The position numbers were made by a program, and so were the translations under genes. From contig JACCTY010000077.1 in assembly GCA_013812145.1 (NCBI GenBank), positions 1 through 32,829 on the forward strand: 32,829 nucleotides of DNA, given 5' to 3'. This stretch comes from Geodermatophilaceae bacterium (lineage in GTDB: Bacteria; Actinomycetota; Actinomycetes; Mycobacteriales; Geodermatophilaceae). Shown in pieces: positions 9,675 to 16,978 of the stretch (position 1 is its first letter; the number at the start of each line of letters is the position of its first letter). Under the pieces are notes generated by a model. That model saw only the letters and a list, made by a program, of their open reading frames with translations, ran no database searches and had not been told where the DNA came from.

Positions 9675-10745
9675 CTAGGCGAAGTTGCGTAACCGCAGGC
9701 TATTCGTCACGACGAAAAGAGAGGACATCGCCATCGCCGCACCCGCCAGCAACGGGTTGAGCAGGCCCGCCGCGGCCACCGGGATCAGCACGATGTTGTA
9801 TGCGAAGGCCCAGAACAGTTTGCCCTTGATGATGCCCAGGGTTCGCCGGGCGAGCCGGATGGCGTCGACAGCGACGTTCAGATCCCCGCGGACGACGGTC
9901 AGGTCACTTGCCTCGATCGCCACGTCCGTCCCGGTCCCCATCGCCAGCCCGAGGTCGGCCTGGGCGAGTGCGGCGGCGTCGCTGACGCCGTCGCAGACCA
10001 TGGCGACGACCGCACCGCCGGCTTGCAGTCGGCGTACCGCCTCCACCTTGCCCTGCGGCAGCACGTCGGCGATCACGTCGCCGATGCCGACCTCGGCGGC
10101 CACCGCACCGGCCGCACCGGCATTGTCGCCGGTGAGCAGTACGGGGCGCAGCCCGAGTTCGCGCAGCCGACGTACCGCCTCGGCGCTGGTTGGCTTGACG
10201 GTGTCCGAGACGGTGAGTACGCCGCGCACTCGATCGTCCCACCCTTCACGGTTGGCGAATCCGGTGATGCCGGGCAGCGGTGCGTCGGCGGCGGCCGCGA
10301 TGGCCTGGGCGATCGGATGCTCGGAGCCGGCCTTGAGCGCGCCCGCCAGTCGCAGTGTCTCGGGGTCTCCGTCAACACGGACCAGGGACATTCGGCCCTG
10401 CGTGATGGTGCCGGTCTTGTCCAGCACGATCGTGTCAACCGCGCGGCTGGACTCCAGCACCTCGGGTCCCTTGAGCAGGATGCCGAGTTACGCACCGCGA
10501 CCGGTGCCGACCATCAGCGCCGCCGCCGGCAGAGTCAGGACAAGGCTGACCAGCAAGTCGCTGGCGCAACGCCCGATCGGTCGTCCACAGTGGACGGTTC
10601 GGCGTCGACCTCGCGGACGGGGAGTACGGCGGAGTAGCCGGCGGCGGTCACCGTGTCGAGCAACGCGGCGGTGGACACCCGCTCTGGGTCGTAGCTCACC
10701 GACGCCCTTTTCGGTCGCGTAGTTGACCGAGGCAGCTCGGCGTCG
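9675..10745 (-). pseudogene. copA: Copper-translocating P-type ATPase, decayed
   Basis: Pieces of a CopA-type Cu+ efflux pump remain. They are a heavy-metal-domain tail (about 10610-10740), one membrane-helix start (DLLVSLVLTLP), then a jump straight to AALMVGTGRGA and the phosphorylation domain with DKTGTITQG, GDN and the last two helices. Lesions seen: loss of the N-terminus next to copZ; an extra base at AAAAGGGCG (about 10697) that shifts the frame; further shifts near 10555-10580; deletion of most membrane segments; a TAA replacing the Gln of GRGAQLGIL (about 10489); and the hinge motif GDGVNDAPAL changed to CDGVSDAAAL. Changes of several kinds argue for true loss of selection rather than a single sequencing error. 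The open 3' part (9675-10460) is long but cannot make a pump. Confidence 0.9.
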
Positions 10746-10755
10746 ACCGTTGTCG

Positions 10756-10977
10756 TCATGTCCGGGCTGCGGTGTAGCCGGCCTCGGTTACCGCTGCCAG
10801 TACCGAATAGTCGGACACGCCGTGGCTGCGCACGACCATGCGGCCGGACGTCAGGTCGACGTCGACGTCGATGACCCCGGCCACGTCACCGACCTCCTCG
10901 GACACCGATGCCACGCAGTGTCCGCAGGTCATACCGGACACCGTGTACTCGCGCTGGATGGCCTTCTGGTCGCTCAT
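10756..10977 (-). CDS. copZ: Copper chaperone CopZ (heavy-metal-associated domain)
   Basis: A 73-aa single HMA-domain protein that would bind Cu+ through the Cys pair of GMTCGHC (C18, C21) and hand it to the efflux ATPase and the CsoR repressor. The rest of the ferredoxin-like fold (VDVDLTSGRMVV, AAVTEAGYTA) is intact. Its ATG overlaps the TGA of csoR (ATGA), so it is translationally coupled to that broken gene. Its own stop codon abuts the copA remains. It is the only open gene left in the csoR-copZ-copA operon. It may still be expressed, although premature termination in csoR could reduce coupling. Confidence 0.9.
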   Translation of the reverse strand: MSDQKAIQREYTVSGMTCGHCVASVSEEVGDVAGVIDVDVDLTSGRMVVRSHGVSDYSVLAAVTEAGYTAART

Positions 10978-11264
10978 GACCGCACCAGCCGAGCGATCGC
11001 GGCGGAGGCCTCGTGCAGCTTGGTGTCGGCCTCGTCGCCGCCTTGGGCCACAGCCTCGCGTACGCAGTGGTCCAGGTGCTGGTCGAGCAGTCCAAGGGAC
11101 ACCGACTACAGAGCCTTGGTGGCCGCGGACACCTGGGTCAGGACATCGATGCAGTACTGATCCGCCTCGACCATCCGCTGCAGACCGCGGACCTGTCCCT
11201 CGACCCGGCGCAGCCGAGTCAACAGTTGATCCTTGGTGGGGATGTATCCGGGCTGGTCGGCCAT
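10974..11264 (-). pseudogene. csoR: Copper-sensing repressor CsoR with in-frame amber stop
   Basis: The frame from ATG 11264 gives a normal CsoR N-terminus ([21 protein letters not shown], first Cu ligand C38 in QYCIDVL). It then meets TAG at 11106-11108, exactly where other CsoR proteins have Gln (ATKAL-Q-SVSLGLL). Reading through the stop restores an intact C-terminus in the same frame to TGA 10974, with the other two Cu ligands H63 and C67 (DQHLDHC). A single C-to-T change explains the break. As it stands, the product is 52 aa without the Cu site and should not form the repressor tetramer. Readthrough or a base-calling error are the alternatives. Confidence 0.85.
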
Positions 11265-11299
11265 CGCGCGTTGCTCCCGTCGTCCTTGACGGCAACCCA

Positions 11300-12610: not shown

Positions 12611-12691
12611 GCGGGAGTGGTGTAACGGCAGCCACGCCAGGTTTAGGTCCTGGTGCCTTCGGGCGTGGGGGTTCGACTCCCCCCTCCCGCA
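12611..12691 (+). tRNA. tRNA-Leu (anticodon TAG)
   Basis: The acceptor stem GCGGGAG pairs with CTCCCGC. The anticodon stem CCAGG/CCTGG encloses the loop TTTAGGT (anticodon TAG). A class II variable arm (GCC-TTC-GGGC) and a T-arm GGGGG-TTCGACT-CCCCC follow, with discriminator A at 12691. CCA is not encoded; CCG follows. The 3' end is the attachment site of the element that follows, and the element supplies an identical 3' end, so the tRNA stays whole. Confidence 0.95.
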
Positions 12692-12692
12692 C
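12667..12692 (+). repeat. attL (26-bp direct repeat, tRNA-Leu 3' end)
   Basis: The repeat begins GGGGGTTCGACTCCCCCC and runs to the CCCGCAC end of the tRNA. It is identical to 16953-16978. It covers the T-arm and acceptor 3' strand, a common crossover region for tyrosine integrases. Confidence 0.92.
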
Positions 12693-12739
12693 CGCAAGAG
12701 TGCAGGTCAGAGCGGGTATCGCGGCTCGCTGGGAGGCCG

Positions 12740-12761
12740 TCTGCTAACAGACTGCTAACGG
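12740..12761 (+). repeat. Left integrase arm-type repeat
   Basis: Two TGCTAAC heptads 11 bp apart overlap the 3' end of the integrase gene. The whole 22-bp block recurs identically at 16817-16838 near the other end of the element. Paired heptads one helical turn apart suit the arm-binding domain of the integrase. Confidence 0.75.
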
Positions 12762-13756
12762 GCGGTTCCGAACACGAGCGCGGCGACGGTCTCGGCTGCC
12801 TCGCCGTGCAGCGCCGGGGACACGTGCGAGTAGGTGTCCAGGGTGATGCTGATCGAGGCGTGCCCGAGCCGTTCCTGTACGACCTTCGGGTGTACGCCGG
12901 CCGCTAGGGCCATCGTCGCCCAGCCGTGCCGCGGATCGTGCAGCCGGATCGGTGGCAGCCCGAGCCGCGCGAGTCGGCGGGTGAACTCGCGGGAGAACCG
13001 CTCCGGGTGCAGCGGCGTCCCGTCGACCTTGGCGAACACGAGGTCGTGGTCTCGCCAGCCCGCGCCGATGAGCAGCCGCTCTGCCGTTTGCGCCTTCCGG
13101 TGCTCCCGCAACGCCGCGACGGTCACCGCGTCGAGGGTGACCGTACGGCGGCCCTTCGCGGTCTTGGGGGTGCCGAACCGCACTTCGTGGTTGACCGTGA
13201 CGACGGTCTGCCTGATCGCGGCCCTGCAGGCGGCCAGGTCAAGGTCGGCCCAACGGAGGCCGAGGGCTTCACCCCGGCGCATCCCGGTCGTTGCCAGCAA
13301 CAGGTACGCGGCCCAATGCCGATCCGTCGTGCGGGCGCCGTCGAGGAACCGAGCTAACTCCTGCGCGCTCCACGTCACCATGTTCGGGCTCCCTGAGGAC
13401 GTGCCTCGCGGCGGGTCTGCGGCGTCGGCTGGATTGCGTGCCAGCCTCCCCCAGCGCACCGCGTCCTTGAACAGTCGGTGGGCGATCGTGTGCACGTAGC
13501 GGACCGATCGCGGGGCCAGTCCACCGCCCTCGGCGTCCTTACGCCCCCCGGCTAGCAGGACGGCGTACAGGCCGTTGAGTGCGCCCGCGTCGACCCCCGC
13601 CAGCGGAGTCGTCCCGAGGTACGGGAGCACGTGCAGACGCAGATTGCGGGCGTAGCTGTAGTGCGTGGCCGGTCGCAGGGTCGGCTCGATCGCCGCCAGC
13701 CAATCCGTAGCGAACTCGGCGAGGGTCTGGCGCGACTTGGGGACGTACGCGCCCGC
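12755..13756 (-). pseudogene. int: Tyrosine recombinase (integrase), 5'-truncated
   Basis: A phage-type tyrosine integrase of the actinobacterial tRNA-integrating group. The frame is open from about 13756 (GAYVPKSRQTLAEFATDWL, core-binding domain) through the catalytic domain. Catalytic residues seen: the first Arg in TTGMRRGEALGLRW, a Lys-bearing hairpin TPKTAKGRRTV, HDPRHGW (H-x-x-R; the usual Leu is Pro here), GHASISITLDTYSHV with the His and the Tyr nucleophile. No start codon precedes the core-binding domain. The expected 60-80 residue N-terminal arm-binding domain is missing, replaced by the 5' end of the opposite-strand terminase gene. A GTG at 13630 could give a shorter protein lacking part of the core-binding domain. 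Recombination activity is doubtful. Confidence 0.85.
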
Positions 13757-13767
13757 TGGATCTCGAT

Positions 13768-15198
13768 GTGCTGCCGGACTCTGGTGGGGATCGGGTGATC
13801 GCCTTCATCGAGGAGTTCTGCAGGCTCCCGAAGGGCGGTTTCGGTGCCACCGCTGGTGCGCCGATCCGGCTTCGGCCGTGGCAGCGGCAGCGGCAGCGGC
13901 AGATCGTGCATGGCATCTACAGCGCTGACCGGCGCCCGCGTCAGGGGGTTGTGTCGGTGGCCCGCAAGAACGGCAAGAGCCTTCTGGCGGCGTGCCTGGC
14001 GCTGTACCACCTGCTGGCTGATGGGGTGGAGTCCGCCGAGGTGGTCATCGTCTCTTCGGATGAGCGGACAGCGAAGGTGATCTTCAGCTTGTGTCGGCGC
14101 ATGGTGGAGTTGGATCCGCGGCTGTCCGGGGTGTTGCAGACCTACGCGGACAAGCTGGTGCATCCGGCGTCGGATTCGGTGCTCGAGGCGTTGCCTGGGG
14201 AGTGGTCCCGCTTACAAGGGCGAAATCCAGTTTTTACGGTGGCCGACGAATTGCACGTGATGAGCCCCGATGTGTGGGACGCGTTGACGATGGCCGGCGG
14301 CACCAGGTCCGCGCCGTTGACGCTGGGGATCTCCACCGAGTGCGACGACGACGACCAGAACCTGCTGGCCCGGCTGGTCGAGCACGGCCGGGATGGGGAG
14401 GACGAGGACTTCTTCTTCATCGAGTTCACCGCCCCGCCGGACTGTGCGGTTGATGACCGGGCGGTGTGGGCCGCGGCTAACCCGCAGTTGGGTCACACGT
14501 TGGACCCGGACCACCTGGCGGCGATGGCGAGGACGAGCCGGGAGTCACGCTTCCGCAGGTACCACCTGAATCAGCGGGTCAGCATCGACGGCGCATGGTT
14601 GCCGGCCGGCGCCTGGGAGTCGTGCGCGGACCCGACAGTGTCTATCCCTGACGGCGCCGAGGTGGTGCTCGGGTTGGACGGCTCTTTCTCCCAGGACTGC
14701 ACCGCGCTGGCCGTGGTCGCCTGCGGCGGGGTGCCGCATGTGGACCTGGTGGAGTTGTGGGAGGCCTCGGAGGGGCACCCCGAATACCGGGTGCCGATCG
14801 CCGACGTCGAGGAGGCGGTGCGGCAGGCGTGCAAGAGGTGGAAGGTGCGGGAGGTCGAGGCCGACCCGTTCCGCTGGCAGCGGACCCTGCAGGCCCTCGA
14901 CGCCGAGGGGATCCCGGTGATCGAGTACCCGCAGAGCCCGGCGCGGATGAGCCCTGCGACCTCCCGTTTCTACACGGCCGTGACCAACGGCGGCCTGACG
15001 CATTCGGGGGATCTGCGGCTGGCCCGGCACGTGCGCAACTGTGTTCTGCGGGAGGACGCCCGCGGGGCCAGGTTGTCGAAGGCGTCGAAGGACTCCCACC
15101 GGCGGATCGACGCCGCCGTGTCGTGTCTGATGGCCTTCGACCGGGCGACAGTGGCGCCCCCCGCAGCTCCGAAGGTCTACCACGTGTACGAGTTCTGA
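13768..15198 (+). CDS. Phage terminase large subunit (ATPase-nuclease)
   Basis: TerL drives DNA into phage heads and cuts the concatemer. The 476-aa product has the ATPase Walker A-like ARKNGKS (65-71), Walker B VADE (D160, E161), and an RNase H-like nuclease with acidic residues at D304 (GLDGSFSQDCTAL), D366 (EADPFRW) and D448 (RRIDAAVS), so both domains look complete. Only a short N-terminal piece could be missing. The frame is open upstream of GTG 13768 and the real start is unclear because the gene meets the truncated integrase head to head. A CAGCGG triplication at 13882-13902 makes QRQRQRQ where related proteins usually have one QRQ. No packaging partners are present. Confidence 0.9.
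   Translation: MLPDSGGDRVIAFIEEFCRLPKGGFGATAGAPIRLRPWQRQRQRQIVHGIYSADRRPRQGVVSVARKNGKSLLAACLALYHLLADGVESAEVVIVSSDERTAKVIFSLCRRMVELDPRLSGVLQTYADKLVHPASDSVLEALPGEWSRLQGRNPVFTVADELHVMSPDVWDALTMAGGTRSAPLTLGISTECDDDDQNLLARLVEHGRDGEDEDFFFIEFTAPPDCAVDDRAVWAAANPQLGHTLDPDHLAAMARTSRESRFRRYHLNQRVSIDGAWLPAGAWESCADPTVSIPDGAEVVLGLDGSFSQDCTALAVVACGGVPHVDLVELWEASEGHPEYRVPIADVEEAVRQACKRWKVREVEADPFRWQRTLQALDAEGIPVIEYPQSPARMSPATSRFYTAVTNGGLTHSGDLRLARHVRNCVLREDARGARLSKASKDSHRRIDAAVSCLMAFDRATVAPPAAPKVYHVYEF
13882..13902 (+). repeat. In-frame hexanucleotide repeat (CAGCGG)3CAG in terL
   Basis: Three and a half CAGCGG units encode QRQRQRQ (residues 39-45) directly before the IVHGIY segment. Relatives usually show LRPWQRQIV, so two extra units appear to have been added by slippage without breaking the frame. 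Confidence 0.6.
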
Positions 15199-15265
15199 GG
15201 CGGATCGATCCTACGACGTGACGAGCGAGACCTAGTTTCCGCCGTTGCCCCGCCTGCCTGCTTGG

Positions 15266-15835
15266 TTAGGGAGAACCGATTTCTGAGTCGAGGAACGCGC
15301 AGAAGTCGAAGTCCTCTTCGTACGTCGGGTGCGGGCCTTTCACGCTCAGCAATTTGTCGAGGAGAATGGTGCCGCCTGGCGTGGAGTCGTTCTCGGTGTC
15401 GAACACGTAGCCGATTCTGACAGTTCCGTACTCTCTCAGGATTACCTCGCCTGACGAGTCTCGGAAGGTGACGGTTCCGGTTTCCTGCCCCACGTAGGCG
15501 ACGATGCCATTGCCCAGGTAGTGGGGCTGCACCTCTCTGAAAAAGAGCTTGCCGGTGACGGTTATGTACTCGCCCGTTTCGGGGTTCGTGATGGTGTCGG
15601 TGAACTGGAGCACTTGCGCGAACGGGAAGAACTGGCCATCGGTGGCCGGGTCCGCGTCTCTAATCACGTAAGCGCCCGAGAACGTGCTTTCGACGACGTA
15701 GGCCCCATCACAGTCCGTGAAGGTCTCCGTCCCGCTGAACGTCCCTGCGTCCTCCACCGCCTGTGCTGGTGCTGCCGTGACCATTAGCCCGGCCGCCGCC
15801 AAGGCGAACGCGGCAAGGGTTGCCCGAATCTTCAC
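15266..15835 (-). CDS. Small secreted protein of unknown function (189 aa)
   Basis: A clear Sec signal peptide (start KIRATLAAFALAAAG, then LMVTAAPAQA, with cleavage probably after AQA at residue 26) precedes about 160 residues rich in Thr, Gly, Tyr and Phe. The mature part has short beta-like strands (TFSGTETFTDCDGAYVV, GTVTFRDSSGEVIL) and two Cys that could form a disulfide. I know no named domain in it. GTG 15835 fits the signal peptide; the longer upstream frame adds a non-signal-like tail. It lies inside the integrated element, convergent with the terminase, and its base composition looks less GC-rich than its neighbours. It is probably accessory cargo. Confidence 0.7.
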   Translation of the reverse strand: MKIRATLAAFALAAAGLMVTAAPAQAVEDAGTFSGTETFTDCDGAYVVESTFSGAYVIRDADPATDGQFFPFAQVLQFTDTITNPETGEYITVTGKLFFREVQPHYLGNGIVAYVGQETGTVTFRDSSGEVILREYGTVRIGYVFDTENDSTPGGTILLDKLLSVKGPHPTYEEDFDFCAFLDSEIGSP

Positions 15836-16036
15836 CTGAGTCTCATCTCGTCGAGGGGCTCCCAAACTTACTCAAAGTAGGCCGGACACAACAGCCCCCC
15901 TTGACGAGAGGCCGACCAGCTGTGCCGACGTGGCGGCTGTACCTGCGAGACGGGGTCGGTGCGCGATGTCGCGGCCCCGAGTCGAGTAGGGACTGGTAGC
16001 CAAGGGACGCTCGGACAGTCGCGTGTCCCCGCCGAT

Positions 16037-16729
16037 CTACAACACCGGTGGTGGTGAGCCGGTCGACAGCCACCGCTTGGCACGCGGTCCCAGAACGCCA
16101 TGCTGGGCGGCGCGGTAGTAAAGCTCCCACCAACGAATAAGCGAGCTGCGCAGCACAAGGTTGCCCTGGGCGAGAGCTGCATCGAAGGCTGGCTGATCCT
16201 TGCCGAGCTGCCCGCCGAGACCCTCTCGCTTCCAGATCTCCAACTCGAGGGTCTCGAACAGCACGCGTGGCGACGGATGATCCGGCGGGCCGTCGGCGAG
16301 CGTGTCGAGGTTGTGGAACCGGCCCTGACGGGCGTAATGGTTGACCGCTTCGAGTAGATCGCGGATCACCTGGTCGTCATCAACCGCGGCCAGCAGACCG
16401 CCGATGTAGCCGCTGCTGGTTGCGGTGTGCAGCCGATCGCGTATGTGGCCGCGGCACAGAGCGTCCAAGTCGAGGATTGCGTGGCTGTACGTCGTGGACA
16501 TGCTGGCCTTACTCGGCCACTGTCCCTGCTCGTCCTCGACGACCAAGCCGTGCACGATCTTGAGAAGCTTCTCAGCGCCAGTGGCGAGGCAGGCAAAAAG
16601 CGGGTCGTAGTCCTCGGTCACAACCCGGAGATCCCGGAGCATCCGCTCGGATTGACCAAGCAGCGACCAGGTGCCTTCGAGTTCATACTCTAGAGCCGAC
16701 CACACTGCCGGTGAATCAAGGTCGGTCAT
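16037..16729 (-). CDS. Helical HEPN-like protein at element edge (230 aa)
   Basis: An all-helical cytosolic protein without recognised named domains. Features seen: GAEKLLKIVHGL followed by an insert and YSHAILDLDALCR, a layout reminiscent of HEPN/AbiV-type proteins, and R134-QGRF-H139, which fits the R-x4-6-H motif of HEPN ribonucleases. This resemblance is weak and is my inference. ATG 16729 is chosen because upstream codons are non-conserved-looking and cross into the att region. The gene sits immediately inside the right arm-type repeats, the place where tRNA-integrated elements often carry phage-defence or abortive-infection cargo. Confidence 0.55.
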   Translation of the reverse strand: MTDLDSPAVWSALEYELEGTWSLLGQSERMLRDLRVVTEDYDPLFACLATGAEKLLKIVHGLVVEDEQGQWPSKASMSTTYSHAILDLDALCRGHIRDRLHTATSSGYIGGLLAAVDDDQVIRDLLEAVNHYARQGRFHNLDTLADGPPDHPSPRVLFETLELEIWKREGLGGQLGKDQPAFDAALAQGNLVLRSSLIRWWELYYRAAQHGVLGPRAKRWLSTGSPPPVL

Positions 16730-16816
16730 GCGATCCACGCTAGCCCGCGGCCGTCCCAATCTGGCGTTCGGCGTGGTCGGACGTTGACCGTGCACACTCT
16801 GTCCACTGTGGACGCT

Positions 16817-16850
16817 TCTGCTAACAGACTGCTAACGGACTTGTTAGCAG
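16817..16850 (+). repeat. Right integrase arm-type repeats
   Basis: The 22-bp block at 16817-16838 is identical to 12740-12761 (two TGCTAAC heptads 11 bp apart). It is followed at 16841-16850 by an inverted copy, TTGTTAGCAG. Together they form the right-hand integrase-binding arm of the element. Confidence 0.75.
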
Positions 16851-16952
16851 AAGGCCGTACAGGGCATGACGGCCGCTCGGCCGGAAACCGTAAACGTGCA
16901 GGTCGAAGGCCATATTCGCGGACAGGGCATGACTGGCCCATACGCCCATGGC

Positions 16953-16978
16953 GGGGGTTCGACTCCCCCCTCCCGCAC
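16953..16978 (+). repeat. attR (26-bp direct repeat)
   Basis: Identical to the 3' end of tRNA-Leu at 12667-12692. The preceding bases do not form the rest of a tRNA, so this is the displaced copy marking the right boundary of the element. The chromosome resumes with the DUF5701 gene. Confidence 0.92.

Follow-up and report, generated by a model that had tools for sequence, protein, structure and literature searches.

The 32,829-nucleotide stretch of contig JACCTY010000077.1 (GenBank assembly GCA_013812145.1, a Geodermatophilaceae bacterium) that was analyzed in full, hereinafter the window, contains a 4.3-kb element (12667-16978) that is inserted at a tRNA-Leu gene and consists of int on the minus strand, terL on the plus strand and two further open reading frames (ORFs) on the minus strand. 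This element is probably a decayed remnant of a capsid-encoding, tail-less satellite resembling the capsid-forming phage-inducible chromosomal islands (cf-PICIs), with two cargo genes; we estimate the probability of this interpretation at about 0.73. It is preferred because int and terL are both beheaded, because a related right end in a sister genome lies behind capsid genes, and because the wider family shares the layout TerL-portal-capsid. A commonplace event, most likely a deletion, then accounts for the puzzle of a terminase without a virion. The element itself is most likely a degenerate example of an already known kind of satellite. The features that carry the argument are the following.

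12755-13754, minus strand: tyrosine integrase remnant; the catalytic part is retained, the start codon and the first ~54 residues are gone
13749-13754: junction at which int homology meets TerL homology without a spacer, interpreted as a deletion
13753-15198, plus strand: terminase large subunit remnant; the ATPase and nuclease domains are retained, the start and the first ~12 residues are gone
15199-15265: spot at which the portal gene follows TerL in relatives (62 of 65)

The truncation of int is apparent from the comparison with a full-length integrase of genome G012 (386 aa, 85.5% identical, located at a tRNA-Leu(GAG) gene), to which the alignment ends at 13753, and with a second G012 copy, to which it ends at 13754; relative to the full-length protein, ~54 N-terminal residues are missing, and the earliest ATG, GTG or TTG in the frame is the GTG at 13630. 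Tyrosine integrases bind arm-type sites through the N-terminal region, recombine at the core and carry an HxLR motif. The window protein lacks the arm-binding region and has HDPR in place of HxLR, its box II reading HDPRH versus HDLRH in the 85%-identical relative. An intact integrase was considered as well and is ruled out by the comparison with locus L185.

The first-pass annotation of this DNA had described TerL as complete-looking, which does not hold: as in int, the 5' part and the start are missing compared to relatives. Among the 54 loci in which the match begins within the first 20 residues, so that the N-terminus is visible, GPK or GAK is present in 53 (GPK in 46), mostly 8-9 residues before a PLDL-like column, whereas in the window PLDL is found at 13753 with unrelated residues in front, and the earliest ATG, GTG or TTG in the frame is the GTG at 13768. 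Both domains of a large terminase, TerL_ATPase and TerL_nuclease, are nevertheless retained and score above the curated cut-offs (PF20441, 66.2 bits with a cut-off of 24; PF03354, 60.5 bits with a cut-off of 23.7), and the protein matches phrog_9 (1.9e-99). Of the packaging genes of a cf-PICI-like element (TerL, TerS and HNH), the element thus has a 5'-truncated terL, with neither HNH nor TerS detected among its four genes by Pfam and PHROGs searches. Codon ~55 of int is joined head-to-head to codon ~13 of terL and, because the homology of both genes stops at this one spacer-free junction, it is most simply explained by a single deletion that would have removed both starts and everything between them.

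The parent can be reconstructed from the right end of the sister genome G003 (same genus) and the wider family. The stretch of G003 that leads up to the right attachment site (attR) contains genes for a scaffold-like protein, a protein of 131 aa, a major capsid protein (phrog_10, 1e-46) and, in last position, a connector (phrog_442, 7.8e-7), after which no tail genes follow; the scaffold label derives from similarity to a gene of locus L078 that matches phrog_4708. A search of IMG/VR with the G003 capsid protein retrieved 65 loci, up to 94% identical (22 below 9 kb, 35 at 9-11 kb and 8 above 11 kb). Detection by tblastn (E 1e-4) identified TerL in 62 of these loci, the portal in 64, the scaffold in 64, the connector in 50, HNH in 50 and an integrase in 32; L098, L100 and L111, which gave no TerL hit (L111 also no portal hit), were retained in all denominators. 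The order TerL-portal-capsid is observed in 62 of the 65 loci, with a TerL-to-portal spacing of 30-179 bp between tblastn hits. Hits to both int and TerL were obtained in 31 loci; in 20 of these, int has the same arrangement as in the window, to the left of TerL and on the other strand. Ten ORFs of locus L078 (9.7 kb) were annotated: by their hits they comprise an integrase, a replication initiation protein, TerL, a protease, a scaffold, a capsid protein, a connector, two unknown proteins and one without hits; no tail family and no small terminase was recognized among these ten (the portal ORF is outside the ten). Within this capsid-encoding set, the window TerL is closest to that of L109 (56% identity; range of 36-56% over 57 loci).

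The G003 capsid protein is matched in 12 of 112 genomes, that is, G003 itself and eleven at 28-39% identity, and TerL in 8 of 96 genomes, that is, the source genome and seven at 24-33%, with no match in the three sister genomes; a TerL pattern search of the genome contigs gave 86 pattern matches, none of which was confirmed. The window element has no capsid, portal or connector gene of its own that could be found with Pfam, PHROGs or blastn, so that it can only be a remnant of a cf-PICI-like element. A blastn comparison of 15190-16960 with relatives returned the right-end block only, with no portal or capsid remnant; tblastx over the same interval produced scattered short hits (pooled E-values, GC-rich query) that were not counted. 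The 4.3-kb element is itself small and free of tail genes, but trivially so.

The boundaries of the element are defined by the following features.

12611-12693, plus strand: intact tRNA-Leu gene, the attachment target (ARAGORN; TAG anticodon in relatives L189-L194)
12667-12692, plus strand: attL core, copy 1 of the 26-bp repeat (exact repeat search)
12740-12761, plus strand: putative left arm-type site, with CTGCTAAC twice (exact 22-bp repeat)
16801-16952, plus strand: right-end block, kept in sister genomes, which contains the right arm-type sites
16817-16838, plus strand: putative right arm-type site (exact 22-bp repeat)
16843-16850: extra CTGCTAAC, inverted, beside the right arm-type site
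16953-16978, plus strand: attR core, copy 2 of the 26-bp repeat, equal to the tRNA 3' end

The attL copy of this exact direct repeat coincides with the 3' end of the intact tRNA-Leu gene, and the repeat has two matches in total in the window at up to 3 mismatches; the exact 22-bp repeat is located once inside each end of the element. Both repeats had been reported in the first-pass annotation, as had the content of int, terL and two unknown genes, and all of this stands: each repeat was obtained in 0 of 100 shuffles, and the ORFs, Pfam and PHROGs agree with the gene content, the two databases providing names for int and terL only among the four proteins. The sequence CTGCTAAC occurs five times in the window versus 0.23 expected, all five within the element, with two occurrences in each 22-bp repeat; these sites are putatively assigned as arm-type sites of the integrase. 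The combination of a tyrosine integrase, though truncated, with att repeats at a tRNA gene is that of a cf-PICI-like element.

The insertion site can be traced in related genomes. A bcp-like gene lies to the left of the tRNA gene and an SseB-like gene and rdgB to the right of attR, and the flanks on both sides of the element match relatives (the names of flanking and neighboring genes here and below, namely bcp, rdgB, SseB-like, GGDEF-like, sulfatase-like, dihydrolipoamide dehydrogenase, transposase and the G008 neighbors, were assigned from translations judged by eye). In G032, a genome from another family with the same gene order, a tRNA-Leu(TAG) gene lies between the bcp match, ~1.2 kb away, and the rdgB match, ~75 bp away, and a single att-like copy was matched within the 5 kb examined. 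Because of this single copy and the short distance to the rdgB match, the G032 gene is evidently an unoccupied site, of the kind that the first-pass annotation had proposed to seek; the arrangement named there as contradicting its reading, with the same four genes in all relatives and no empty site, was not found, given that the element content differs in the sister genomes G001 and G003. Both genomes share with the window, at 82-83% identity, the right-terminal ~180 bp of the element, which comprise the arm site and one att copy, and this block leads to the tRNA 3' end and then the rdgB region, with different contents behind the common right end. Among the loci compared, the right-hand ORF of the G001 element was matched in G001 alone. 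In G002, 1.1 kb containing a GGDEF-like gene lies past the tRNA gene, and a single att copy precedes the contig end.

From the repeats, the two truncations, the head-to-head junction, the sister right end with its capsid genes and the family layout, we infer the order of events, the loss of function and the origin of the cargo genes. A ~10-kb satellite encoding an integrase, a replication protein, HNH, TerL, portal, protease, scaffold, capsid and connector would have entered the 3' end of the tRNA-Leu gene, with the N-terminal domain of the tyrosine integrase acting on the CTGCTAAC arm sites and recombination taking place at the 26-bp core. In the subsequent decay, one deletion would have joined int codon ~55 to terL codon ~13, with the loss of the starts and the intervening DNA; the portal-to-connector genes after TerL would have been lost as well, and two apparently unrelated genes, one for a secreted and one for a helical protein, now sit between terL and attR. 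Such a remnant would not be expected to integrate, excise or package alone; because the core and arm sites are intact, movement in trans by a related integrase may persist. The earlier proposal of a prophage reduced to cargo is borne out with respect to the reduction; as to the parent, however, a capsid-encoding, tail-less satellite of ~10 kb is more likely than a full prophage. More generally, gene starts need close checking before a minimal satellite is called; the present case places the capsid-encoding satellite type in a Geodermatophilaceae genus with fragmented genomes.

Several observations weigh against this interpretation. The junction is known from one assembly. The TerL frame is still open and both Pfam domains are kept, so that either the decay would be recent or the gene remains under constraint; initiation at a codon other than ATG, GTG or TTG is conceivable. 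A complete parent was not seen at this tRNA: the same-genus genomes are fragmented, with contig C133 of G003 starting inside the scaffold-like gene and contig C216 ending at the tRNA. The search for tail genes covered the ten ORFs of one locus, L078, out of the 65, of which eight exceed 11 kb. Finally, int is only ~27-29% identical to the integrases of the satellite relatives (tblastn), and 28 of its 31 IMG/VR relatives are found on contigs of 22-70 kb, that is, of prophage size; because of this distance and these contig sizes, int and terL may derive from different parents, implying a mixed origin. The three best IMG/VR relatives of int are on contigs of 6-9 kb, and some match to it is present in 105 of 108 family genomes.

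The low similarity of int to satellite integrases and the prophage-sized contigs also speak for descent from a complete tailed prophage whose packaging module was phiC31-like, or from a prophage/satellite hybrid, as does the affinity of TerL to the TerL of TG1, phiBT1 and phiC31 (39-40.5% identity over 94% of the length), which are the best-ranked phage records among the matches listed. phiC31 and TG1 (Lomovskayavirus) are tailed phages of ~41 kb, and all 2477 matching phage records are below 60% identity (40.5% for the best-ranked one). We consider this origin unlikely: the window TerL is closer, at 56%, to L109 of the capsid-encoding set. Moreover, the connector is the last gene before attR in G003, with no tail genes following, and the best identity of the G003 capsid protein to a phage is 28.3% among the matches listed (40 of 160 records).

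Less likely still is an assembly artefact, whereby a chimeric or collapsed contig would have fused int with terL at the expense of the remaining sequence. The source genome (3.08 Mb) is fragmented into 186 contigs, and the 32-mer spanning the junction has no exact match in IMG/VR. Contigs of four genomes (G000:C64, G003:C216, G008:C363 and G012:C424, G000 being the source genome) terminate at, or one nucleotide beyond, the 3' end of a tRNA-Leu gene, which indicates that such sites are hard to assemble and suggests that their occupancy varies in the sampled populations. On the same contig as the element, a P-type (copper) ATPase-like gene (9675-11295 of the window) lacks ~0.9 kb relative to G006; the gap lies between the metal-binding-like and the hydrolase parts, which are in different frames, and may reflect a deletion pseudogene and genome decay or, alternatively, an assembly loss. 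Against an artefact, both flanks of the element match relatives, the spacer-free junction falls at the homology limit of both genes, and other remnants of the same family are found in the source genome and in one sister genome.

A working minimal satellite in which TerL is retained for packaging into the capsid of a helper or for disturbing that helper, which the first-pass annotation had entertained in the form of a helper-dependent element, is very improbable: TerL keeps its ATPase and nuclease domains without a stop, and the core and arm sites are intact, but the start and the first ~12 residues of TerL are lost, int lacks its start and N-terminal region and has P for L in HxLR, and no regulator or replication protein was detected among the four proteins with Pfam or PHROGs. 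A working satellite with TerL as its only such gene was rejected on the same ground, int and terL both being without starts at one junction.

The satellite relatives, from which the preferred origin of the element as a decayed satellite is argued, are alike in layout to the cf-PICIs as described in PMC10690885 and to the candidate PICIs of Mycobacterium, including phiRv1 and phiRv2, as described in PMC10654092, a comparison made by description only: they combine an integrase, HNH, TerL, portal, protease-like protein, scaffold, capsid and connector in mostly no more than ~11 kb. In contrast, the window element consists of a broken int and terL with cargo, and no small terminase was recognized in L078. 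MulchRoom and MiniFlayer of Streptomyces are likewise Actinomycetota satellites with packaging and capsid genes of their own and, according to PMC10690885, have direct terminal repeats and virulent helpers; they are not among the matches listed (best 20 TerL and 40 capsid records). Among the related loci, the 9.9-kb stretch of L107 and the 12.0-kb stretch of L088 are bounded by direct repeats of 77 and 93 bp, respectively, which suggests circular forms of related satellites. On the 26-kb IMG/VR contig L068, two capsid-connector segments (1-908 and 10353-11266) are 88% identical and 10.35 kb apart, apparently representing two different satellites in tandem.

Two tRNA-Leu genes appear to serve as integration sites, at which more than one element has left remnants. 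The source genome itself contains a second right-end block (G000:C115:5824-5996, locus L232) that is 82% identical, includes an arm site, and is followed by 22 bp in common with the 3' end of tRNA-Leu(GAG); ordinary-looking chromosomal genes begin no more than 400 bp inward, and the block is apparently a lone right end. A similar lone right-end block is present in G002 (C207:644-816). Elsewhere in G002 (C275; L187:27-601), the C-terminal half of int, 88% identical, lies beside a left arm region ~100 bp from a sulfatase-like gene and seems to be a further remnant. In G012 (C262; L186:1464-3252), the N-terminal part of a related integrase stops beside a transposase-like gene.

Between terL and attR, the element carries two cargo genes.

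15266-15865, minus strand: secreted-protein gene, cargo (signal peptide ending in AQA judged by eye; likely start GTG ~15835)
16037-16729, minus strand: gene for a helical protein of an unnamed family, cargo adjoining attR

The GC content at third codon positions is 0.765 in the secreted-protein gene and 0.758 in the helical-protein gene versus 0.87-0.88 in int and terL, and neither gene has a convincing match in Pfam, NCBIfam, PADLOC or PHROGs. The secreted protein is found in 4 of 108 family genomes, the source genome included, and has no phage match. Together with its upstream region (15510-15896), its gene is 92.5% identical at the DNA level, over 387 bp, to the end of contig C230 of G008, which belongs to a different genus in the same family and in which the neighbors of the gene look ordinary chromosomal. 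Because the best match of G008 to the rdgB region is only 70% identical, this similarity fits a recent transfer or a contamination of one of the bins.

The helical-protein gene has two relatives besides its own copy among the 112 family genomes and 26 in named actinomycete contigs, including those two (Modestobacter muralis and Geodermatophilaceae bacterium URHB0062 are represented); it is found in two plasmid records, one of them with the homolog four genes from an AbiV-family gene, and has no phage match. Across an alignment of 21 sequences, E53, K54, K57, H83, R137 and D142 are among the invariant residues; the alignment used for the model draws on 20 of the 26 loci, L205, L209 and L221 having been dropped for short frames and L213, L215 and L219 omitted by choice. 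The predicted structure is all-helical (pLDDT 90) and gave no Foldseek match at E<=0.001, and a search of solved structures with the alignment found none up to E 1. A second look retrieved two HEPN proteins, 4nqf (Z 6.4; 142 residues aligned at a root-mean-square deviation (rmsd) of 4.4) and AbiV (9bj6; Z 4.9; 141 aligned, rmsd 5.0), the HEPN chains ranking among G-protein-coupled receptors and designed bundles, with Z values that helical bundles can reach by chance. Unlike in HEPN proteins, the Rx4-6H motif is not conserved: the window protein has RQGRFH, and in most relatives H is replaced by Y. The evidence that the modeled protein is HEPN-like is therefore weak.

In 4 of the 26 loci (L203, L207, L211 and L215), the helical-protein gene starts 25-130 bp past a tRNA gene on the same strand (Met, Pro, Gln and Pro, respectively), compared with 0.045 such cases expected under random placement (8 tRNAs in 300 kb), although the four may not be independent and the start positions of the homologs were chosen by a script. 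No 14-bp repeat of the tRNA 3' end was found elsewhere in these four loci, which speaks against intact elements there. It is conceivable, if doubtful, that the helical protein represents an undescribed, widespread actinomycete family of anti-phage proteins, possibly of the HEPN type, that repeatedly settles at tRNA integration sites, so that here the satellite would have decayed while the defense gene stayed behind att sites movable by a related integrase. The family, unnamed in Pfam, NCBIfam and PADLOC, is a testable candidate for phage defense. Downstream of the homolog, L207 has an integrase-like frame, and L211 and L215 share a similar gene of ~211 aa.

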